From: Parvibaculaceae bacterium
GTDB lineage: Bacteria; Pseudomonadota; Alphaproteobacteria; Parvibaculales; Parvibaculaceae
Direction of reading: 5' to 3'
DNA length: 55,926 nucleotides
Assembly: GCA_029209985.1 (NCBI GenBank)
Contig: JARGNZ010000021.1
Location: 1 to 55,926 of the forward strand
The translations under genes and the position numbers were made by a program. Position 1 is the stretch's first letter. Each line of letters opens with the position of its first letter. The notes below the pieces were generated by a model. That model was not told where the DNA came from, ran no database searches, and worked only from the letters and a program-made list of their open reading frames with translations. This document shows, in pieces, positions 12,891 to 40,337 of the stretch.

Positions 12891-13688
12891 TCACCCCATG
12901 GCTTCAAGGGTGCGTTTGGCCATGACCGTGACTAGATGCGCGCGGTAGTCGCCATCCCCGTGCAGGTCGGCAATCATAGTGTCGCCTGCGAGGGAGAGAC
13001 CCTTGAGTGCATCTGTTGACCAATTTTGGGCCAATGCGTCTTCTAGCTCGCGCCAGCGGAATACGCCTTCTTGGCCGGCTCCCGTTACGCCAACCTTGGG
13101 ACCGGCGCTGGTTTGAGCAATGAAAACGCCGACCATCGCATAGCGTGAGGCGGGGTTTGGAAATTTTGAGTAGGCGGCGCGCACTGGCAGTGGAAAGCGT
13201 ACTTCTTTTAGAATTTCGCCCGGCTCTAACGCGGTTTCAAAAAGGCCGGTGAAAAAATCATCGGCTGGGATTTCGCGCTGGGTGGTGACGATGGTTGCCC
13301 CTAGGGCTAACGCTGCGGCGGGGTAATCAGCAGAGGGGTCATTATTGGCGATGGAGCCGCCAAGGGTGCCTCTGTGGCGCACGGCTGGATCGCCAATGTG
13401 ATTGGCTAAGCTTGCAAGGGCTGGGAGGGCGTCGCGGCAGGTTTGGGACGTTGCGACTGTGGCATGGCAGGTTGCTGCCCCAATGACCAGAACATCCCCC
13501 TCAAGGCGGATGAAATTCAAAGCGTCTATGCGGCTGATGTCCACCAAGGTGGTGGGCATGGCGAGGCGCTGCTTGAGTGTTGGGATCAATGTTTGACCGC
13601 CTGCAAGAAGGCTTGCTTCGTCGTCTGCGGCAAGTTTTTGTGCTGCGTCGTCAAGCGAAGTGGCTTGGTGATAATCGAATGAATACAT
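12891..13688 (-). CDS. coxM: FAD-binding medium subunit of a molybdenum hydroxylase (CoxM type)
   Basis: The 265-residue protein carries the FAD motifs of the CO dehydrogenase/xanthine dehydrogenase medium subunit: LLAGGQTLIPTLKQRLAMP and RHRGTLGGSIANNDPSADYP. The C-terminal CO_deh_flav domain starts around residue 160. It would carry electrons from the iron-sulfur subunit to an acceptor. It sits between the 2Fe-2S subunit gene (9 bases upstream) and coxD. The catalytic large subunit gene is not in the cluster, so the substrate cannot be inferred. Confidence 0.93.
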   Translation of the reverse strand: MYSFDYHQATSLDDAAQKLAADDEASLLAGGQTLIPTLKQRLAMPTTLVDISRIDALNFIRLEGDVLVIGAATCHATVATSQTCRDALPALASLANHIGDPAVRHRGTLGGSIANNDPSADYPAAALALGATIVTTQREIPADDFFTGLFETALEPGEILKEVRFPLPVRAAYSKFPNPASRYAMVGVFIAQTSAGPKVGVTGAGQEGVFRWRELEDALAQNWSTDALKGLSLAGDTMIADLHGDGDYRAHLVTVMAKRTLEAMG

Positions 13689-13697
13689 AAGGGCCTC

Positions 13698-14180
<483 letters not shown>

Positions 14181-14297
14181 GTGATCCTCCTGTCGGGGGG
14201 AGAAATGAAATCCCCGAATTGGGGATGTGGATAGGGAGTGCGCATGCCGGGTGGCAATCCCTCTCCGTGTTGGAAAACAATGGGACAGTGTTGCGGC

Positions 14298-24254: not shown

Positions 24255-24358
24255 TCGCGCTTGCATGTCGTGAAAAACCTGTGTAAATCCTGCTCCACAA
24301 ATTGATCAGGGTTTGCAGCAGCGAACTTGGTGGTCAGACCCTCTGCGGAGGGCAGTGT

Positions 24359-24435
24359 CGGGGCATAGCGCAGCCTGGTAGCGCACCTGGTTTGGGACCA
24401 GGGGGTCGTAAGTTCGAATCTTACTGCCCCGACCA
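24359..24435 (+). tRNA. tRNA-Pro (anticodon TGG), prophage integration target
   Basis: The gene is 77 bases long with encoded CCA (24433-24435). Acceptor CGGGGCA pairs with TGCCCCG. The anticodon stem CCTGG/CCAGG encloses TTTGGGA, giving anticodon TGG. The T arm holds AGTTCGAAT. The phage integrase gene begins 170 bases further on, pointing back to the tRNA, so the 3' half of this gene is the likely attachment site and was restored on integration. Confidence 0.95.
24405..24435 (+). mobile_element. Probable attL core (3' part of tRNA-Pro)
   Basis: Tyrosine integrases usually recombine at the anticodon or T-arm half of a tRNA. The integrase gene lies directly downstream, so the crossover should fall in this stretch. 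The matching attR copy must lie beyond the right end of the window. The exact core length cannot be set without it. Confidence 0.5.
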
Positions 24436-24495
24436 CTAACTTCTTGAAAACATTGAATAAATTGAACGTCGGCCTTAGGGGCCTAAAGTCGTTTT

Positions 24496-24520
24496 TCAAA
24501 AGTTGGTCAAAAGTTGGTCA
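24496..24520. repeat. Tandem 11-bp repeat next to attL
   Basis: TCAAAAGTTGG occurs at 24496-24506 and 24507-24517, followed by TCA of a third unit. It lies between the tRNA and the integrase gene, where arm-type integrase or excisionase sites are usually found. That role is inference. Confidence 0.6.
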
Positions 24521-24604
24521 ATTTTTCCCTCGAACAATTCACGTGCACAGCTATTTCACACCCAAAGAATGAGTCTGTGCGGGCATTGATGCTGGAGTTG
24601 AAAA

Positions 24605-25891
24605 TCAGGCTTTGTTGGCGGGTTTTTCAGCCGGCGCGAAGGCGGCCGCTGAGCGGTTCATGGCGGAGCGGATGTCGTCGCCAGTTACGCCTACATAATC
24701 CATGGTCGTGGTTATCTCGCTATGGCCGAGCACGCGCTGCGCCTCCACCAAACTACCACCCGCGTTGATGAGACGGGTCGCACTGGTTTTGCGTGTTGCT
24801 TCATGGAAGGTGATCTCGCCCAAGCCGCAGGCTTCCTTTACCGTGGCCCAAGACTTCTTGAAGCTATCGAAGGGCTCCCATTGGCCAAGCTTGCGTCCAT
24901 TGGGGCCAGTTTCGCCACCCCGTGGATTCCAACGCAGGAAAACCCGCCCGCTCTCCTGTGGCCCTCTGTTGGCCAACCATAGCCAAAACACGTCAACGAT
25001 CGGAAGAGTGAGGCGACGGCCGCCCGGTTTTTTGGACTTAACAAAGGCCGTAATGGTCCGCGCAGACATATCCACTTGGCTCCAATCCAGCTCCGTCAGG
25101 TTTTGGCGGCGTAAGGGACACCAGATCCCCGCCTGCAATAAATCAGCAACGTGCACATAAGCCAGGTTCTCCGGCTCATAACACCAAGCCATCACCGCAG
25201 CCTGCATTTCTGGCGTAATCGTCCGCTTAGGGGAATCTGGCGTCTCAAACCTGTGCTTGTTCCAAATCACCGGGGCCAAGCGATAGCCACCACCGGGCTC
25301 TGGTACTTTGGGATCAACGGCCAACCCCCAATGGGTGCGCGCGCGATTGACCACAGCCCGCAAGAAGTCCAACTCATTGTTAACCGACTTCGGCCCGATG
25401 AGAGGCAACGGCTCATCGCCCTTGGCTTTGCGGTTGCGCACCGGCTCAGACCGGCGCAAGGCGCAGTATTGGGCCACGACATTGTTGGTCACCTCATCCA
25501 AATGAATGCCATGCTGCCCATGAATAACCGACATAAGTCGCAAAATCGTGAGCCCAGAGGTGCGAATGTCATCAGCTGAGCTAATTTGGGGCGTAGAAGT
25601 GCCCTTGCACACATGTTCCAACCAATAGCGGGCAAAGGCATCGTCCAGTGTCATGCGCGTTGCATTGACCTGGTCTTTCCCCGTTTCAATGTCATGGATC
25701 TTCTGGGCGGTGCGTGCCAGGGCTATTCTTTTGTTGGCCGTGCCACAACTTGCCCGAAGGCGAACACTTGCGCCGTTTGGTCTTTTGGCTGTCGCGTTTT
25801 CGGTCCAGAAAGGCTTGATTTTCCCGGCTTTTCTGTGGTTGGGGGGATATTTTGTCCGGATGACGATGTCGTTAGAAGAGTTTGCAGACAT
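24605..25891 (-). CDS. int: Phage tyrosine integrase
   Basis: The 428-residue site-specific recombinase has a C-terminal catalytic domain. Arg I is in CPLRRQNLTELDW, the HxxR box in TFHEATRKTSATRL, the second His in LGHSEITTTMDYVG, and the nucleophilic Tyr in the same segment. The N-terminal ~100 residues contain an arm-binding-like region and a core-binding domain. It should insert the phage into tRNA-Pro. Its first ~56 codons overlap the end of the excisionase-like gene in another frame. A later start is possible, but the N-terminal sequence still looks like integrase. Confidence 0.92.
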   Translation of the reverse strand: MSANSSNDIVIRTKYPPNHRKAGKIKPFWTENATAKRPNGASVRLRASCGTANKRIALARTAQKIHDIETGKDQVNATRMTLDDAFARYWLEHVCKGTSTPQISSADDIRTSGLTILRLMSVIHGQHGIHLDEVTNNVVAQYCALRRSEPVRNRKAKGDEPLPLIGPKSVNNELDFLRAVVNRARTHWGLAVDPKVPEPGGGYRLAPVIWNKHRFETPDSPKRTITPEMQAAVMAWCYEPENLAYVHVADLLQAGIWCPLRRQNLTELDWSQVDMSARTITAFVKSKKPGGRRLTLPIVDVFWLWLANRGPQESGRVFLRWNPRGGETGPNGRKLGQWEPFDSFKKSWATVKEACGLGEITFHEATRKTSATRLINAGGSLVEAQRVLGHSEITTTMDYVGVTGDDIRSAMNRSAAAFAPAEKPANKA

Positions 25892-28947: not shown

Positions 28948-28976
28948 TTGACCGCCACCTTTAATGTGTGTATAAA
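28948..28976 (+). promoter_or_regulatory. Sigma-70-type promoter of brnTA
   Basis: TTGACC (28948-28953) and TATAAA (28971-28976) are 17 bases apart and match the consensus at five of six positions each. The expected start of transcription is at or next to the brnT ATG (28983), so the mRNA would be leaderless. The repeated TATGTGTATA/ATGTGTGTATA sequences overlap the promoter and could be the BrnA operator. Confidence 0.65.
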
Positions 28977-28982
28977 AAACAT

Positions 28983-29249
28983 ATGAAGCTTGAATGGGAC
29001 GAAGAAAAACGCAGCCGGACTGTGCAGGAGCGGGGCCTTGATTTTGCCGATGTGGCGTTGATCGATTGGGACCAAGCCTTGACCCAAGAAGATGCGCGCC
29101 AAGCCTATCCAGAAACCCGCTTTGTCACCTTCGCGCCCATTCGCAATCGTTTGTGTGTGGTTGCCTGGTGCTACCGGGGCGAGGCGATGCGTGTGATCAG
29201 CCTGCGCAAGGCGAACGCGCGAGAAAGGAAACGATATGACGAAAGCTAA
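28983..29249 (+). CDS. brnT: BrnT-family toxin (RelE-like ribonuclease)
   Basis: From the ATG at 28983 the protein has 88 residues, the normal BrnT size. The N-terminus LEWDEEKRSRTVQERGLDF fits the family pattern (x-E-W-D-x-x-K-x-x-x-N-x-x-x-H-G-x-x-F), with Arg or Glu at positions where Asn/His are commoner. The C-terminus VISLRKANARERKRYDE is characteristic. BrnT toxins cut RNA and are held inactive by BrnA. A GTG at 28968 is upstream of the predicted transcription start and is not used. The stop overlaps brnA by 14 bases. Confidence 0.9.
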   Translation: MKLEWDEEKRSRTVQERGLDFADVALIDWDQALTQEDARQAYPETRFVTFAPIRNRLCVVAWCYRGEAMRVISLRKANARERKRYDES

Positions 29250-29460
29250 ACCATATATTGGCAAAGACGGCGAGGTGCGCGAGCTGGACAAAGAGTTCTT
29301 CGCCACAGCCCGGCGGGGACGCCCGCCGTTGCCGGAAGACGAACGCAAGCGGCGCGTGAACATCATGCTCGATCCCGATGTTGTGGACCGTCTCAAAAAG
29401 GACGGCAAGGGATGGCAGACACGGGCCAACGCGTTGCTGCGAGAGGCGCTCGGACTGTAA
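29236..29460 (+). CDS. brnA: BrnA-family antitoxin (ribbon-helix-helix)
   Basis: This 74-residue protein has the C-terminal ribbon-helix-helix seen in BrnA: RVNIMLDPDVVDRLKKDGKG, followed by WQTRANALLREALG. The N-terminal part should wrap BrnT. It also represses the shared promoter in known systems. The ATG lies inside the 3' end of brnT, with AGGAAACG as the ribosome site. It is oriented against the phage replication gene, as expected for a stability or defence cargo. Confidence 0.9.
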   Translation: MTKAKPYIGKDGEVRELDKEFFATARRGRPPLPEDERKRRVNIMLDPDVVDRLKKDGKGWQTRANALLREALGL

Positions 29461-29509
29461 CCGACGTGCGCAGAAATAAGTTTACCGTTAAAGCTTAAAG
29501 TTACTGCGC

Positions 29510-29815
29510 TCATGCCACCAACTCCTCTAGCTTGCCTTCGGTTAGGCAGTGGTCGAGGGTGATGTAGAGGCGGGCGGAGTTTTCGGTGTCGTCTTCTGGG
29601 GCGCGGAAGGTGACCTCTGTCACCATGGCGGCGCGCATGGCGCGGATTTGGTCGAGCAGGGGCAGGAAGTCCCGCTCATCTATCCCACACAACATCAGTT
29701 CAAGGGTGCCAAGCTGTCTGTATTGGTTTGCAAGGGTGGCGATGTCGCGGTCGGGCAGGGTTGCCTTAATCGCGTCAAATGGGTTTTCTGGCGTGTCGAG
29801 AATCATCTTAGGCAT
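29510..29815 (-). CDS. Small phage protein of unknown function under the structured leader
   Basis: The start at 29815 is set by GGAGG six bases upstream, giving 101 residues (MPKMILDTPENPFDAIKATL at the N-terminus). The frame is open to 30085, but that part translates the structured leader. The protein is acidic and mostly helical (DRDIATLANQYRQLGTLELM, then LPLLDQIRAMRAAMVTEVT). No family recognised. Its ribosome site lies inside a copy of the AACCTATGG element of the upstream RNA, so its translation or transcription is probably controlled by that RNA. Confidence 0.7.
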   Translation of the reverse strand: MPKMILDTPENPFDAIKATLPDRDIATLANQYRQLGTLELMLCGIDERDFLPLLDQIRAMRAAMVTEVTFRAPEDDTENSARLYITLDHCLTEGKLEELVA

Positions 29816-29824
29816 CAGAGGCCT

Positions 29825-30045
29825 CCATAGGTTCAAATGAACTCGGCGACCCCCTGCTAAAAGGGTGACCGAGCAACAACGGGTTAGCAGACCGGCCCTA
29901 TGGTACCGGCGCACCCGAAGGTGCCCCATTGCGCTCGGCCATAAAAGCAAAACCGCATCACCCTGAATGCAGGTGTGGCGCGGTTTCGAGCGCCATAGGT
30001 TGGACGAGCTGCTAAACCCGGCATGCCCATTTCTGACATGCCCCA
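29825..30045 (-). ncRNA. C4 / P4-CI type antisense RNA leader (candidate)
   Basis: Reading the minus strand, two sense elements share the same order of blocks, TTTAGCAG ... AACCTATGG. The first is at 30020-29993; the second is at 29862-29825 and overlaps the ribosome site of the gene at 29815. Between them (29906-29880) lies the antisense block GGTACCATAGGGCCGG followed by TCTGCTAACCCG, which can pair with either copy. Additional stems (CGCTCG with CGAGCG; GCACC/GGTGC) surround it. This seqA-seqB-seqC layout is that of the P4 CI RNA and phage P1/P7 C4 RNA. The translated leader (GDAVLLLWPSAMGHLRVRR) also resembles the 'Ash family' false proteins often called over such RNAs. The exact ends are not known. 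Confidence 0.7.
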
Positions 30046-30150
30046 TCAAATTGCGCTGATTTGCGGAATACGTCAACACCCTCATGCCGCCACCTTGAGA
30101 CTTAATGCTGAAACGTGCATGCTACCCGCAGAAACAGTGGGGGTGTGGGT

Positions 30151-31536
30151 ATGAGCGAGCGGAAAGATACGGAGAGCCGGGGAGAGCCCAAAGGGTTCTT
30201 CTATTTTGAGAGGGTTGATGTCGCGCTGATTGTGGGAATAGTTTTTGGGTTCGGGACCATCATAGTTTCGGTCGGCTACATTGTTCTCCACGCTGGTTTT
30301 TCGCTCAGTAACATCAAAACCTATGTCGATATGGTGTACACTTTCGCACTCGTTCTCGGTGGTTTCCTTACATTGATTTTTGCAGGCATACGTCTTAATC
30401 AAGGTGCCAAACAAACCTTCCACATTCAAAAAGAGTCTGAGAGAAAAGATAGGGTACATATTGCCGATAGTCTTCAGGGCGCAGTCAAACTGTTGCAGGA
30501 ACCGGCAGATAGCATGAAGTATTTGGCGATCAGTCAAATGAAGCAGCTTGGCACGGATTATCCTAATCAAACTATGGAGCAAGTGGTACGAAGTTTGTGT
30601 GCTCAGGCAAGGGAATATCGTCCTCATTTCTCTGAAAATGATCTGGAATGTATTCGTCAGTCCATTATGCATCGAATTATCGAGCCGGGGTTGAGCGAGC
30701 ATATTAAAAGGCTGACCAGTGTTCTTACCTATCAAAACAAAATGGATGCGAGCGGGTTTTCTCAATCCACTATTGATGATCTGACTTTGGAACTCAAAGA
30801 ATTGGAAACTACTGCTCGTTACGAAAAGGTTGTTGGTAGACTGATTGAAGTTGTTGTTGATCTTGCTGTTGATGCAAAAGCGGCGGGCGCGAGCTCTTGG
30901 CACTCCATCAAATCTATTATTGATTTGAGAGGAGTTAGATTTTCTAATGCGAACATTCGAGCTCTTGATATTGAGTATAGCAAGTTCGACGGCTGTCATT
31001 TTTTCAATGTAAATTTTTCGGATTGCACTTTTAGCGGTGATTTTTTCAATGGCAGCGAATTTAAGCATTGTACCTTTAGCAACTGCACGTTCGTTGACGC
31101 GATCTTTTATAGTGTCAAGTTTCCAAAAGCTGTTTTCTCCGAATGTGATTTTATCAACGTTAAGTGGCTTGGTGTTGACTTTTGTGAAGCCAAATTTATT
31201 GGAATACGAATTGGTGTTCACGATACGGAGGTGTTTTCTAAATGTAGAATGACAGCTGCTGAGTTTTCCTTTATGGAAAACTTTAGAGATACGAAGGAAA
31301 TGCAGCGGACCAATACTGAAATTCGGAGGAATTTTTTCCCCCATGATTTTGTAGAATGTTATGTAGTTGAAACGAGACAATCTGACGGAGAGGGCCAGAT
31401 TGTATTTCCTCAAGGACTTGAAGGTAATTCCCCGTCCCTCCATGCTGAGTCTGGTGGGACACAAGAGCACTCCAGTGATGAATGTAGGGTCTATTTTGAG
31501 GTGCAAATGCGAAGCTATTGGATTCATCGCCTTTAA
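30151..31536 (+). CDS. Two-TM pentapeptide-repeat protein, prophage cargo
   Basis: The ATG at 30151 follows GGGGGTGTGGG and gives 461 residues. Two membrane helices lie at ~23-46 (VALIVGIVFGFGTIIVSVGY) and ~60-80 (FALVLGGFLTLIFAGI). A helical cytosolic region at ~85-260 follows (KDRVHIADSLQGAVKLLQ). Residues ~278-352 are about 15 consecutive pentapeptides with Phe or Trp at each centre (KFDGC, HFFNV, NFSDC, TFSGD and so on). The gene is AT-rich and runs against the phage genes. The stop interlocks with that of the tetR-like gene. The design fits a membrane-bound sensor or exclusion protein; the function is unknown and no known defence family was recognised. Confidence 0.85.
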   Translation: MSERKDTESRGEPKGFFYFERVDVALIVGIVFGFGTIIVSVGYIVLHAGFSLSNIKTYVDMVYTFALVLGGFLTLIFAGIRLNQGAKQTFHIQKESERKDRVHIADSLQGAVKLLQEPADSMKYLAISQMKQLGTDYPNQTMEQVVRSLCAQAREYRPHFSENDLECIRQSIMHRIIEPGLSEHIKRLTSVLTYQNKMDASGFSQSTIDDLTLELKELETTARYEKVVGRLIEVVVDLAVDAKAAGASSWHSIKSIIDLRGVRFSNANIRALDIEYSKFDGCHFFNVNFSDCTFSGDFFNGSEFKHCTFSNCTFVDAIFYSVKFPKAVFSECDFINVKWLGVDFCEAKFIGIRIGVHDTEVFSKCRMTAAEFSFMENFRDTKEMQRTNTEIRRNFFPHDFVECYVVETRQSDGEGQIVFPQGLEGNSPSLHAESGGTQEHSSDECRVYFEVQMRSYWIHRL

Positions 31537-35397: not shown

Positions 35398-36681
35398 ATG
35401 GGTAACCGCCTAGGAAAAGCTAAAGCAAGCGATATTAATTTTGTCGACCTTTTCGCTGGGGCCGGGGGGCTTTCCGAGGGCTTTGTTTCGGCTGGTTTCA
35501 ACCCAATTGCGCATGTGGAATCTGACGCAGCGGCATGTTTTTCATTGAGAACGCGGGCTGCCTTTCATGCATTGGCTAGCGAGGATCAGTCTGACCTCTA
35601 TATTGACTACCTTAATGGTTTGCGGACACGTGATGAGCTTTATGCAGAAGCTGAACTTATTTCTTCCAATCAAGTGATCAACAAAGAAATTAATTCGAAG
35701 AATATGAAGGGAATTTATTCTCGGATTGATAGGCTACTTGATGGGCGTGAATTGGATTTGATTGTTGGAGGTCCACCTTGCCAAGCGTATTCAGTTGTTG
35801 GTCGGGCACGTTCTGATAATGGAATGGAAGGCGATAAACGTAATTTCTTATTTGAGGATTACGCCAAATTCCTGAAGCGGTATCAGCCGCGTTATTTCGT
35901 ATTTGAAAATGTGGTGGGCCTAGTCTCTGCCAAGGACAAGCAGGGCGTGAGCTATCTTGATAAGATGATCAAGAAATTTAAGAGCGCTGGGTATGAGACA
36001 GAGTACCAAATTGTTTCGGCAGATGAGTATGGCGTCCTTCAAAAACGCCGACGGATTATCCTTGTGGGACGGCGTTCGGGAGAGAGGAATTTCTTTCCTG
36101 AGTTGAAGAAAAAAGAGCAAACAGCAATTGTTGATGATGCATTGAGTGATTTACCTGCTTTGAGAGCGGGTGAGGGGTGTCCGGGTCCTATTAAGATGGG
36201 GAAGATAAGTTCGCAATGGCTTCATGATGCTAAGGTGCGTGATAATCTTTATCCCGTCACATGGCACCAAGCGAGACCTCACACCAAGCAAGACTTAGAT
36301 ATCTATCGTAGGGCTGTGAGGAAGTGGGACGAGAAAGGCGAGCGTTTGGATTACAATACGTTGCCTGAGAAGTTGAAGACCCACTCCAACCGAAAGGCCT
36401 TTCTGGACCGGTTTAAAGTGGTGGCTGCAAATTTGCCAGCGTCTCATACGGTTGTGGCTCACATTTCCAAAGATGGTCACTATTACATTCATCCAGACCT
36501 TGAGCAGAACCGATCTTTGAGCCCGCGTGAGGCTGCTAGGCTTCAGTCCTTTCCAGATAATTTCTATTTCGAAAGTGCGAGTGGGAAGCCAAGTCGGACG
36601 GCTGCCTTCAAGCAGATTGGCAATGCAGTACCTGTAGTGTTGGCAAGAAGTATCGCTGAAGCGTTAAGGGAGCAGATGTAA
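35398..36681 (+). CDS. DNA 5-methylcytosine methyltransferase (prophage cargo)
   Basis: The 427-residue enzyme transfers a methyl group from S-adenosylmethionine to C5 of cytosine in DNA. The ordered motifs are: I (VDLFAGAGGLSEGF, residues ~16-29), IV with catalytic Cys128 (IVGGPPCQAYS), VI (FVFENVVGL), VIII (LQKRRRIILVGRR), IX (REAARLQSFPDNF) and X (KQIGNAVPVVLARSI). About 95 residues between motifs I and IV are longer than in small bacterial enzymes. The gene is rightward, AT-rich, and lies 120-130 bases before the GHKL gene. No restriction endonuclease domain was recognised nearby. Target sequence unknown. Confidence 0.92.
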   Translation: MGNRLGKAKASDINFVDLFAGAGGLSEGFVSAGFNPIAHVESDAAACFSLRTRAAFHALASEDQSDLYIDYLNGLRTRDELYAEAELISSNQVINKEINSKNMKGIYSRIDRLLDGRELDLIVGGPPCQAYSVVGRARSDNGMEGDKRNFLFEDYAKFLKRYQPRYFVFENVVGLVSAKDKQGVSYLDKMIKKFKSAGYETEYQIVSADEYGVLQKRRRIILVGRRSGERNFFPELKKKEQTAIVDDALSDLPALRAGEGCPGPIKMGKISSQWLHDAKVRDNLYPVTWHQARPHTKQDLDIYRRAVRKWDEKGERLDYNTLPEKLKTHSNRKAFLDRFKVVAANLPASHTVVAHISKDGHYYIHPDLEQNRSLSPREAARLQSFPDNFYFESASGKPSRTAAFKQIGNAVPVVLARSIAEALREQM

Positions 36682-36813
36682 GTGATTTTGTTTTAGTGTT
36701 TTATATCTTTACGCGTGGGACTTATTCCCCCTCTGAATATCCGATATATCTTATCATGAAATCTTTGTGTCGCCTTTAGGGGCTTTCTCTATTGTACGAA
36801 GTTGGAAAATAGA

Positions 36814-38961
36814 ATGCAGGCATCATTTAGACCAAGAGCTAGGCTGTTGAAACTTCTTGGCGATCAACTTATTGGAACGTCACAGCTCGCAATATTTGAG
36901 TTAGTAAAAAACTCTTATGATGCAGATGCAGAGAAGGTGGCAATAACCATCTCGAATCCGAATGTTCCCGACAAAGCTCAGATTGAAGTAATCGATTTTG
37001 GTGGAGAGGGAATGGATCTGGATACCGTTACTAATGTTTGGTTGGAGCCGGGTGCAGACCACCGACAAAAAATGCGCCTCAAAGGAAAGAGGTCTAAAAA
37101 GCATAAACGGCTGCCTTTGGGTGAAAAGGGTGTTGGTCGTTTTGCTGTTCACAAGCTTGGACAGGTAATTGAATTGACTACGAGAGCGAAAGGGGAGAAG
37201 GAGCTTTACCTCCGTATCGATTGGAAGCAACTCGATAATTGTGAGTATATGGAAGATGCCAACGTTGAAATAATTGAAAAAGAAACCCCAGAAGTTTTTT
37301 TTGGCAAGGAGACCGGTACAAAAATTGTTGTTTCGGAGCTTAATTACAACCTAGGGCGGGGCGAAGTGCGTCGTCTCTACCGGAATATCCAATCTATTAA
37401 GTCACCTTTTGAATTTGACAAATTTAAATTGGAAAATTCTGCTTCTTCGTTTGATGTGACCCTCGAGGTTGAGGGGCACCCTGATTGGACCGAAGACCTA
37501 CTCGAACTTGAAGCAATTATAAAGCAATCTTTGTTTTCATTTTCGTTTCTATTTGATGCCGGGAAATGGTCTTGGAATTATGAGTTTACCCCTAATGAGG
37601 CAATGAAAAAAGGCCTTCGAATTGAGGGTCGTGAGCTGTCTGTCAGCGATGAGTTTTGCGAGATTTCAAACCCTAGCGATCGAAAAAAGTACCTAGAAGG
37701 CCCAAAAGAGTTTTTCAATGACCTCGGGCCTATATTTGGGGAGATTTATGTATTTGATTTTGACTCGAACTTAAGTGGCTTTGTTAGCGAGCAGGGCGCT
37801 GTGCAGACGTTTCTGAAAGAGAACCAGGGCATTCGAGTTTATAGGGATGGCATTCGAGTTTATAATTATGGCGAACCAGATAATGACTGGCTTGAGATGG
37901 ACCTTCGACGTGTTAATCGACTTGCTAAGGGTTTGAATCGAAGAATTGTTGTCGGCGCTATCGCTCTCGATTTAGAACAAACGCCAAGGCTGGTGGAGAA
38001 AACAAATCGTGAAGGCTTTGTCGAAAGCGAAAGCTTTCTCAAGTTGAAAAGTGTGATTGGTTCTGCTCTCGGTAAGTTGGAAAATCTGAGACTCGATGAT
38101 AAAAACCGCCTTCGAGCTGTGTCTAAGGGGACGCCAACGGCCAGTAGGGCTGTCTTTAATAACCCTATTGTAGATTTGAAGGAAATTGTTGCTAAGCACC
38201 ATATGGAAACCGAACTTGGACCTGCGATCGAGTTGGTGGAAAAGAAGTATGGTGAGATGGAGGAGATCATGCTGACTGCAGGTTTGGCTGGCCTCAATAT
38301 GTCGATCGCATTTCATGAAATTCACCATGGAATTTCTACCGCGAGAAAAAGCATCGAAGCAGGTAAGGATTTGAGGACGATCCTTGAGCAATTTGACCGT
38401 TTTGAACTACTGCTTGATACCTATGCGGGACTTTTGAAACAGGAAAAGTTTAGGGAAGTAACGCTTGCTGAATTGTTGAAGTCCAATGTTACGCTGTCGG
38501 ATACAAGGTTTTTGCTTCATAAAATTTTGGTGAGTTGTCCGGTATTGGTTGGGGATGAACCTAACTACTCTTTGAAAATCCCTAAAAATTTATTGGTTGG
38601 CATTGTCAATAACCTTATTGACAATGCCATTTATTGGCTCGACCAAAGATGGGGCGATAATGATAAGAAAAAGTACCTTTACGTAGGTGTTAGTGAAAAC
38701 TTTGACAAAGGTCCCGCAATTATTATTGCTGATAATGGACCTGGGTGGAGAGAGATCGATCGATTGGATATGGTGAAGCCATTTAGGACCACTAAACCTG
38801 GTGGTATGGGGATCGGTTTATATTTTGCAGATACAGTGATGCAAATGATTGGGGGTGAATTGGTTTTACTAGAACAAGGCGATATTGATGGTATCCCTAG
38901 TAATGCAAACGGCGCGATTGCTGCGCTGGTTTTTAGCGAGGCGAAACCATGCAGCAGCTGA
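36814..38961 (+). CDS. Dual GHKL-ATPase signalling protein (Hsp90/MORC-like plus histidine-kinase-like)
   Basis: The ATG at 36814 has GGA seven bases upstream; a TTG at 36802 is the other option. The 715-residue protein has two GHKL ATPase modules. The first (residues ~25-115) has E29, KNSYDADA (32-39), DFGGEGM (61-67) and GEKGVGRF (103-110), as in Hsp90/MutL/MORC proteins. Then comes a middle domain. A dimerisation/H-box-like segment SIAFHEIHHGI follows (FHEIHH at 500-505). The second, histidine-kinase-type ATPase has VNNLIDNAIYW (598-608), DNGPGW (640-645) and GGMGIGL (663-669). It overlaps the receiver-domain gene by 13 bases. Combined with the methyltransferase it looks like a DNA-linked signalling or defence module; this is inference. 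Confidence 0.85.
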   Translation: MQASFRPRARLLKLLGDQLIGTSQLAIFELVKNSYDADAEKVAITISNPNVPDKAQIEVIDFGGEGMDLDTVTNVWLEPGADHRQKMRLKGKRSKKHKRLPLGEKGVGRFAVHKLGQVIELTTRAKGEKELYLRIDWKQLDNCEYMEDANVEIIEKETPEVFFGKETGTKIVVSELNYNLGRGEVRRLYRNIQSIKSPFEFDKFKLENSASSFDVTLEVEGHPDWTEDLLELEAIIKQSLFSFSFLFDAGKWSWNYEFTPNEAMKKGLRIEGRELSVSDEFCEISNPSDRKKYLEGPKEFFNDLGPIFGEIYVFDFDSNLSGFVSEQGAVQTFLKENQGIRVYRDGIRVYNYGEPDNDWLEMDLRRVNRLAKGLNRRIVVGAIALDLEQTPRLVEKTNREGFVESESFLKLKSVIGSALGKLENLRLDDKNRLRAVSKGTPTASRAVFNNPIVDLKEIVAKHHMETELGPAIELVEKKYGEMEEIMLTAGLAGLNMSIAFHEIHHGISTARKSIEAGKDLRTILEQFDRFELLLDTYAGLLKQEKFREVTLAELLKSNVTLSDTRFLLHKILVSCPVLVGDEPNYSLKIPKNLLVGIVNNLIDNAIYWLDQRWGDNDKKKYLYVGVSENFDKGPAIIIADNGPGWREIDRLDMVKPFRTTKPGGMGIGLYFADTVMQMIGGELVLLEQGDIDGIPSNANGAIAALVFSEAKPCSS

Positions 38962-40337
38962 TAAATGCAATTGTGATAGATGATAAGTCTGAAGATGTTC
39001 TTGCTGTGACTGGTGCTTTGGCATCGAAGGGTATTTCAACGCTACCGATACACTTCACTGACGTTGAGGCTGCGCGCAAGTTGTGTACTGTTGCATCGGA
39101 AACAGTGCCAAGGGTTATCATTACTGATATTCAAATGACAGGGGGTGACGCGACACCGTCGAAAACAGATATGAGTAATGTGGCTGGCTGTATTTCGGAT
39201 ATTGTGGCAAAAAATATTGGACCTTACATAATTTTGGCTTGGACTTCAAAATCTGCCTCTTTCGATACTTTGAAAGAGAGGGTGGAGGAAGTTCTTAATA
39301 CAAGAGAGCAAATACATCCTTTCTATTTTGGAAGCATTGATAAGAATGAATGTCGAGATGAAGTCGGAAATTACGATGCGAATACTATTTTTTTTAAAGT
39401 CCGGGAACATCTAGAAAATCAACAACAGATTCGGGCGCTAATGTTTTGGGAGGGAGCTGTCCTTCAGGCGGCTAAAGAGACTGTGAATGTGTTCGGGAAT
39501 TTGCCTCAAGAGGAACTGAGAAGTAATTTATTCTCTTTAGCACAGAGTGTTGCGGGGAAAAATTTGAGTGGTTTTGAAGCTACGGCCATAAATGAAGCGT
39601 TTTCATATATCCTTAAAGATAAACTTGGGCAGTTGGCAATTTCTTCTTCCCTTCAGAAACATTGGGCAGGAGCTTTAGTCGGAGGCGATAAGTCTCCCAT
39701 TGATGAGGTCGCGCGCCATAGACTAAACACTCTTTTGCATATTGAGGACCTACCAACGTCAGACATAATTTGCCCAGGAGATGTTTGGTGTACAGAAGAT
39801 CCAAGTACAATTTTCAAAATGATATCAATTGAAAAAGAAGAAAAAAAACAGACAAACATATTTATGGAAAGCTTGGTTTCTTATTCTGATGACCAGAAGA
39901 ACCTTGATTCTAAACGCAAAACAGCAAGCGGCGAGAGGAGAAAAACATTAAGGAACCAGCTTAAACAGGAATTTGAAACTCCTAGATCACAGCTAAAAAA
40001 TAAAATGAAAGTCGTTGCAATTGAAATAAGTCCTACCTGCGATTTTTCTAATCAGAAGAAACCTCTTAAAACTTTTCTCGCCGGAGCGTTGGTACCTGTT
40101 TCTGAACTTCTCCCTATCAACGGTTCAGATGCTTTGGTGAAGTGTAGGATACGTTGGGAAGAGAATGAGTGGTTTCTGGTTTTTTCAGCAAAGTATATGT
40201 TCTCGATGACAGAGGCTCACATTGCAAGAGAAGATTCAGGCTTTCAAAAGATCTTCAGAGTGCGTGAGAGTCTTCTTCAGTCTTGGGTGCATTCTATTTC
40301 CGCGTATAACTCGCGGATTGGTACAGCTTCGTTTTAG
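38949..40337 (+). CDS. Receiver-domain protein with a long unknown C-terminal part
   Basis: The 462-residue protein starts with a response-receiver-like domain (~1-125). The acidic pair Asp11-Asp12 is in NAIVIDDKSED, the probable phospho-acceptor Asp60 in RVIITDIQM, and the Thr/Lys side in IILAWTSK. The remaining ~330 residues are not a known output domain. They are helical up to ~330, with a basic coiled stretch, followed by a beta-rich end containing VVAIEISPTCDFSNQKK. No DNA-binding helix-turn-helix was seen. The start overlaps the GHKL gene by 13 bases. The stop interlocks with that of gpD. Confidence 0.8.
   Translation: MQQLINAIVIDDKSEDVLAVTGALASKGISTLPIHFTDVEAARKLCTVASETVPRVIITDIQMTGGDATPSKTDMSNVAGCISDIVAKNIGPYIILAWTSKSASFDTLKERVEEVLNTREQIHPFYFGSIDKNECRDEVGNYDANTIFFKVREHLENQQQIRALMFWEGAVLQAAKETVNVFGNLPQEELRSNLFSLAQSVAGKNLSGFEATAINEAFSYILKDKLGQLAISSSLQKHWAGALVGGDKSPIDEVARHRLNTLLHIEDLPTSDIICPGDVWCTEDPSTIFKMISIEKEEKKQTNIFMESLVSYSDDQKNLDSKRKTASGERRKTLRNQLKQEFETPRSQLKNKMKVVAIEISPTCDFSNQKKPLKTFLAGALVPVSELLPINGSDALVKCRIRWEENEWFLVFSAKYMFSMTEAHIAREDSGFQKIFRVRESLLQSWVHSISAYNSRIGTASF

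Follow-up and report, generated by a model that had tools for sequence, protein, structure and literature searches.

The window analysed here is a stretch of 55,926 nucleotides from a Parvibaculaceae bacterium (assembly GCA_029209985.1, contig JARGNZ010000021.1), and its minus strand carries a C4 antisense RNA with short target sites on both sides, followed by a small gene, an inverted toxin-antitoxin pair and a primase gene (Table 1). The closing stem, the tetraloop hairpin, the b' loop and the a' segment are all present in the Rfam C4 alignment. The predicted mature RNA starts with GG, as in P1, and its 77 nt have a minimum-energy fold of −45.4 kcal/mol. With the same model (RF01695) and the same tool, the C4 RNA of P1 scores 68.8 bits and the CI RNA of P4 scores 74.9 bits, so the "P1/P4 type" is one family. 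The first-pass annotation had called the locus a C4/P4-CI type antisense RNA and had suggested a search with the Rfam C4 covariance model; that search gave 72.2 bits against a cut-off of 45, and the annotation of P1 and the covariation of loops and targets (below) bear the call out. The model has no second match in the 3.09 Mb assembly.

Table 1. Coordinates of the C4 locus and the adjacent genes, as positions in the window
Feature	Position	Strand	Evidence
Leader resembling IsrK/P4 seqA RNA, holding a1 and b1	30041-29946	minus	RF01394, 31.3 bits, E 7.2e-5; cut-off of 50 not reached
a1 target, TTAGCAG	30015-30009	minus	Exact complement of a'; order as for the putative a1 annotated in P1
b1 target, CCTATGG	29999-29993	minus	Exact complement of b'
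C4 antisense RNA	29946-29861	minus	Rfam RF01695, 72.2 bits, E 3.4e-12, cut-off 45; full model, 1-87
Mature C4 RNA, predicted, 77 nt	29940-29864	minus	Ends inferred from those of P1 C4, as placed against its Rfam match
b' loop at the top of stem P3, CCATAGG	29903-29897	minus	Exact complement of b1 and b2
a' segment 3' of stem P3, CTGCTAA	29890-29884	minus	Exact complement of a1 and a2
a2 target, TTAGCAG	29860-29854	minus	Exact complement of a'; 3 nt past the predicted 3' end of C4
b2 target, CCTATGG	29831-29825	minus	Exact complement of b'; overlaps the GGAGG Shine-Dalgarno at 29826-29822
C4 target gene, 101 aa, predicted helical protein	29815-29510	minus	Open reading frame
BrnT/BrnA toxin-antitoxin pair	28968-29460	plus	PF04365, 73.7 bits; PF14384, 63.5 bits; between target gene and primase
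Toprim primase, presumed downstream early-operon gene	28854-26152	minus	phrog_1139, 1046 bits

Target sites and leader of the C4 RNA

The target sites, which we named after the P1 record, form one pair on either side of the RNA. The last GG of b2 is the start of GGAGG, and the ATG of the next gene follows at 29815. That the sense blocks occur twice with their complement between them, and that the second target covers a ribosome site, had been noticed in the first-pass annotation; we confirmed both the positions and the overlap, and the claim of two sense targets is supported by the exact a1/b1 and a2/b2 pairs as well as by the covariation. In 20,000 dinucleotide-preserving shuffles of both flanks, an ordered pair of blocks (5-40 nt apart) never appeared upstream, appeared once downstream, and never appeared on both sides together. 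When we searched blindly for helices that the RNA could form with its flanks (at least 7 bp, G-U allowed), these pairs did not stand out: the longest upstream helix (10 bp) lies elsewhere, and of the target pairs the a2 pair alone (8 bp) was among the helices listed. Duplex energies from RNAduplex were below those of shuffled sequences by 2.6 sd for site 1 and by 0.9 sd for site 2. We give the helix scan and the duplex energies little weight because both ignore loop structure.

The leader that holds a1 and b1 is nearer to isrK than to c4-a1b1, unlike the leader of P1. It falls short of the cut-off of the isrK/P4 seqA leader model (RF01394; 31.3 bits against 50, with P4 at 60.8 bits), and the c4-a1b1 model (RF03163, cut-off 46.7), with which P1 scores 51.0 bits, finds nothing in the window at its gathering threshold and nothing at E ≤ 10 in 29600-30300. 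At the 3' end of the leader, a hairpin with a T-rich tail (29972-29953) looks like a terminator, although shuffles of the region would be expected to yield 1.2 such sites. A promoter scan of 29400-30400 found no sigma-70-like promoter. Divergent from the C4 transcript, a pentapeptide-repeat protein is encoded on the plus strand at 30115-31536.

The arrangement is close to that of the P1/P7 C4 RNA (RF01695; AF234172), which belongs to the same family, has the same order (a1, b1, C4, a2, b2, gene) and, in P1, also has b2 adjoining the ribosome site of the first gene. Several spacings are equal in the window and in P1 (a mature RNA of 77 nt, which for the window is by alignment; 3 nt from C4 to a2; 22 nt from a2 to b2), and others differ slightly: b2 to ATG is 9 nt in the window and 10 nt in P1, a1 to b1 is 9 and 7 nt, and b1 to C4 is 52 and 66 nt. 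Unlike P1/P7, the window represents another host class and a P2-like prophage, and its target gene encodes the 101-aa protein instead of Icd/Ant. (An excerpt of PMC8198154 covers P1, and one of PMC2864571 lists both C4 and c4-a1b1.) The CI RNA of P4 (X51522) also matches RF01695, is preceded by an isrK-like leader and stands before the replication (primase) gene; for P4, PMC4825925 describes that CI terminates transcription. The C4-like Group 1 sRNAs of Acinetobacter baumannii, a gammaproteobacterium, share the C4 structure and show RNA-seq signs of processing, according to extracts from PMC5320573; these report many C4-like copies in A. baumannii, in contrast to the single match in the genome of the window.

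The prophage and the genes behind the C4 RNA

The element encodes P2-type structural proteins: capsid (PF05125, 428.5 bits), and sheath, baseplate J, GPD and tape measure (PF04984, PF04865, PF05954 and PF10145). It also encodes an Ogr/Delta zinc finger. We considered a P4-like satellite and rejected it because these structural genes of a P2-like phage, capsid and tail genes among them, are present; P4 is a satellite without annotated capsid or tail genes. No exact repeat of at least 14 nt of the tRNA end and the stretch that follows it (24340-24620), as expected for an attachment site, was found within the window. The contig ends at 57543, inside the prophage, so the far attachment end may be missing. 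The part of the prophage that separates its early region from tail gene D includes, at 35398-40337, a DrmMII-like cytosine methyltransferase (531 bits, PADLOC), a HATPase protein and a further gene, possibly defence cargo.

The 101-aa product of the target gene matches no family above cut-off in Pfam, PHROGs or NCBIfam. A structure model of it is helical (pLDDT 85, pTM 0.75) and has no fold match at E ≤ 0.001 among viral or PDB structures. Among 40 genomes of the order, homologues were found, besides the genome of the window, in G003 (E 9.4e-8) and G006 (E 0.0024), and both of these (32 and 27% identity) sit directly after a C4 RNA. At other C4 loci the target position is occupied by other proteins, several of which, judged by eye, may be antirepressors or Icd-like or Ner-like proteins.

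Two relatives from the same family (loci L002 and L061) show the same order of C4 RNA, target gene, inverted cargo and primase, with different loop and target letters. Inverted open reading frames follow the C4 target at 5183-5989 in L002, at 9514-10542 in L061 and at 13599-14264 in a third locus, L062. The primase follows the inverted slot in the window, L002 and L061, and the contig of L062 ends there. None of the inverted frames of these three loci has a PADLOC match or a Pfam match above cut-off. With an inverted frame or gene pair in the window and in at least three relatives, the position that follows the C4 target gene resembles a hotspot for cargo. In two further loci (L006 and L011), C4 is located after the primase, not before it. 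For this reason, and because BrnT/BrnA is on the opposite strand, it is uncertain whether C4 would control the primase.

C4 RNAs were found in 5 of the 40 genomes of the order (four of them above cut-off) and in at least 62 of 398 genomes of the phylum (60 above cut-off), with the genome of the window counted each time. Our samples of the class, of the phylum and of PF10554 genomes rest on stricter or capped first looks, by which weak matches can be missed. Among 11 chosen C4 genomes (that of the window, the alphaproteobacterial ones found and four primase relatives), eight have a P2-type capsid gene; in seven of them it shares a contig with the RNA, at a distance of about 22.6-28.7 kb. Of 21 primase loci in genome contigs, five have C4 in the flank examined, and some flanks are short (L003, L019). 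None of seven stretches of published phages with a related primase (six Peduoviridae and one unclassified, taken from 21 records) has C4 at cut-off. The part of PMC5320573 available to us names orders predicted in 2010 to hold C4, and none of those named there is alphaproteobacterial; in the open-licence literature we found nothing joining "C4 antisense RNA" with "P2-like."

Covariation and the proposed switch

We compared the loops and targets of 43 distinct C4 loci, leaving out L023 as a duplicate of L002 and keeping L026 although it is below the family cut-off. For each locus we searched the 130 nt before the RNA, and a downstream flank of 90 nt that starts 6 nt before the end of the C4 model, for the longest exact complement of the b' loop and of the a' segment. 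In their own flanks, the means were 7.19 nt for b1, 6.72 for a1, 7.79 for b2 and 6.63 for a2; with swapped flanks (300 derangements), they fell to 4.75, 5.02, 4.75 and 4.70 (sd 0.13-0.14). The cut of the a' segment is misplaced in L032, L044, L049 and L050, and keeping these loci lowers the own-flank means. By the same measure, sites are missing in L026 (the downstream pair) and L028 (the upstream pair), and b2 of L011 is 4 nt. The loop letters differ between loci and the targets change along with them: in L002 the loop CCTTGAG goes with CTCAAGG, and in L024 the loop CCTACGGA goes with TCCGTAGG. Of all the evidence, this covariation of the b' loop and the a' segment with their targets speaks most strongly for a pairing that is in use. 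As each C4 allele has its own letters and matching targets, immunity groups might be readable from sequence.

Well formed and situated in a P2-like prophage, the locus is very probably a C4/CI-type antisense RNA switch, of a kind already known. We propose that a promoter upstream of about 30041 would yield the leader with a1 and b1, then the C4 RNA and then the mRNA of the 101-aa gene, and that the C4 segment would be excised from this longer transcript, a step that in C4 RNAs is carried out by RNase P. The excised RNA, about 77 nt long, would pair through b' and a' with b2 and a2 and thereby hide the Shine-Dalgarno ahead of the 29815 gene. Such a block of translation would probably make transcription stop early in the early operon, which would keep the prophage silent and provide immunity. 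By analogy with seqA of P4, pairing of C4 with a1 and b1 in the nascent leader may promote termination before C4, so that the RNA would limit its own level. The switch would add an alphaproteobacterial P2-like prophage to the cases of RNA immunity; in the Alphaproteobacteria we found C4 in at least 5 of 385 genomes (that of the window included).

We weighed two other explanations. The RNA and its targets could be a relic, kept by recent descent and no longer regulating, in an operon that has taken up toxin-antitoxin cargo. The inverted BrnT/BrnA pair between the target gene and the primase would fit this, as would the poor conservation of the target gene (27-32%), and the prophage may be incomplete, as the contig ends inside it. 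However, the four 7-nt pairings are exact even though their letters are unlike those of the nearest relatives. Also, an inverted frame (a different gene) is at the same place in L002, L061 and, up to the end of its contig, L062, so the slot looks like a tolerated site. We consider a relic quite unlikely.

The other explanation is that the region is coding and that its real product is a 191-aa protein, whose frame starts at 30085, crosses the C4 segment and continues into the 29815 gene. The frame is indeed open from 30085 into the 101-aa gene. More generally, among the 36 of the 43 C4 loci in which a target start was called, the target frame is open for at least 200 nt upstream in 20, as compared to 10 and 7 for the other frames, and in the C4 part of 19 PF10554 loci (see below), codon position 3 is slightly more variable than the other two (0.99 versus 0.80 and 0.78 bits). 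The score with the C4 covariance model and the paired changes of loops and targets speak against a coding region. Furthermore, the 191-aa frame has no NCBIfam match, a 51-aa frame in the region has no Pfam match, and 6 of the 20 PF10554 matches contain in-frame stops. A protein product as the main function of the region is very unlikely, but the variability at codon position 3 and the more often open target frame leave room for a leader that may be translated in some phages.

The Ash family and the C4 RNA

One claim of the first-pass annotation failed, namely that the open frame across the RNA resembles proteins annotated as Ash family (PF10554). At thresholds of E ≤ 1 for Pfam and E ≤ 0.1 for PHROGs, the 51-aa frame (29884-30039) matches nothing, and a search of the whole genome of the window with PF10554 gave no hit at E ≤ 0.001. 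The frame in the phase of Ash reads AFMAERNGAPSGAPVP and then TAG, with the stop inside the b' loop. We therefore rejected an Ash identity for this frame.

The idea behind that claim, Ash as translated C4 RNA, nevertheless finds support at other loci, and these checks suggest that the Ash family is largely C4 RNA misread as protein. In 16 genomes chosen for C4, all 12 matches to PF10554 overlap a C4 RNA. In the 398 genomes of the phylum, which were not selected for C4 but contain the 16 chosen ones, we found at least 20 PF10554 matches in 14 genomes. Of the matches found, 19 of 20 (18 of 18 above cut-off) overlap a C4 RNA that has the same orientation, and all 19 do so in the same phase. The lone match without an overlap is below cut-off and has three stops; the other five matches with in-frame stops are among the 19. 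All but one of the 14 genomes with PF10554 are among the 62 with C4. PF10554 finds nothing in most of the genomes with C4, so of the two the RNA is the more widespread.

P4 itself (X51522) points the same way. PF10554 matches P4 at 8704-8330 on the minus strand (82.6 bits), a stretch that takes in the CI RNA (8507-8420) and the leader resembling IsrK (8692-8615). The gene annotated as epsilon in P4, by contrast, matches PF25738 (170 bits) and does not match PF10554. (P1 has no PF10554 match.) We consider it likely that PF10554 results from reading the locus of the C4/CI antisense RNA in a single frame and does not represent proteins with their own function, and that "fusions" to antirepressors or Rha are annotations that run through the RNA into the target gene. 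In the open-licence literature, we found no title or abstract opening that equates Ash with C4 RNA and nothing that joins "Ash family protein" with "antisense RNA." Instead, Ash is equated with epsilon in the part of PMC8628076 available to us, which gives PF10554.10 as the epsilon profile; PMC8951638 mentions that some Rha proteins have an Ash domain, to which no function is assigned, and PMC11773190 mentions a PICI that carries a conserved protein of the Ash family.

If our reading is correct, then the P4 epsilon gene belongs to PF25738, and a survey that used PF10554 as the marker for P4 epsilon (as the consulted portion of PMC8628076 indicates) counted the immunity RNA, not epsilon. Annotations of P4-like satellites, of phage-inducible islands and of some Rha proteins would also need correcting. 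This re-reading of Ash seems to us the part worth following, and more useful than the switch itself, as it touches a family that serves to define parts of satellites and to label conserved genes as "Ash family protein." Separately, a target frame that is open through C4 more often than the other frames (in 20 of 36 loci, as given above) may explain annotations of "Ash-Rha" fusions.
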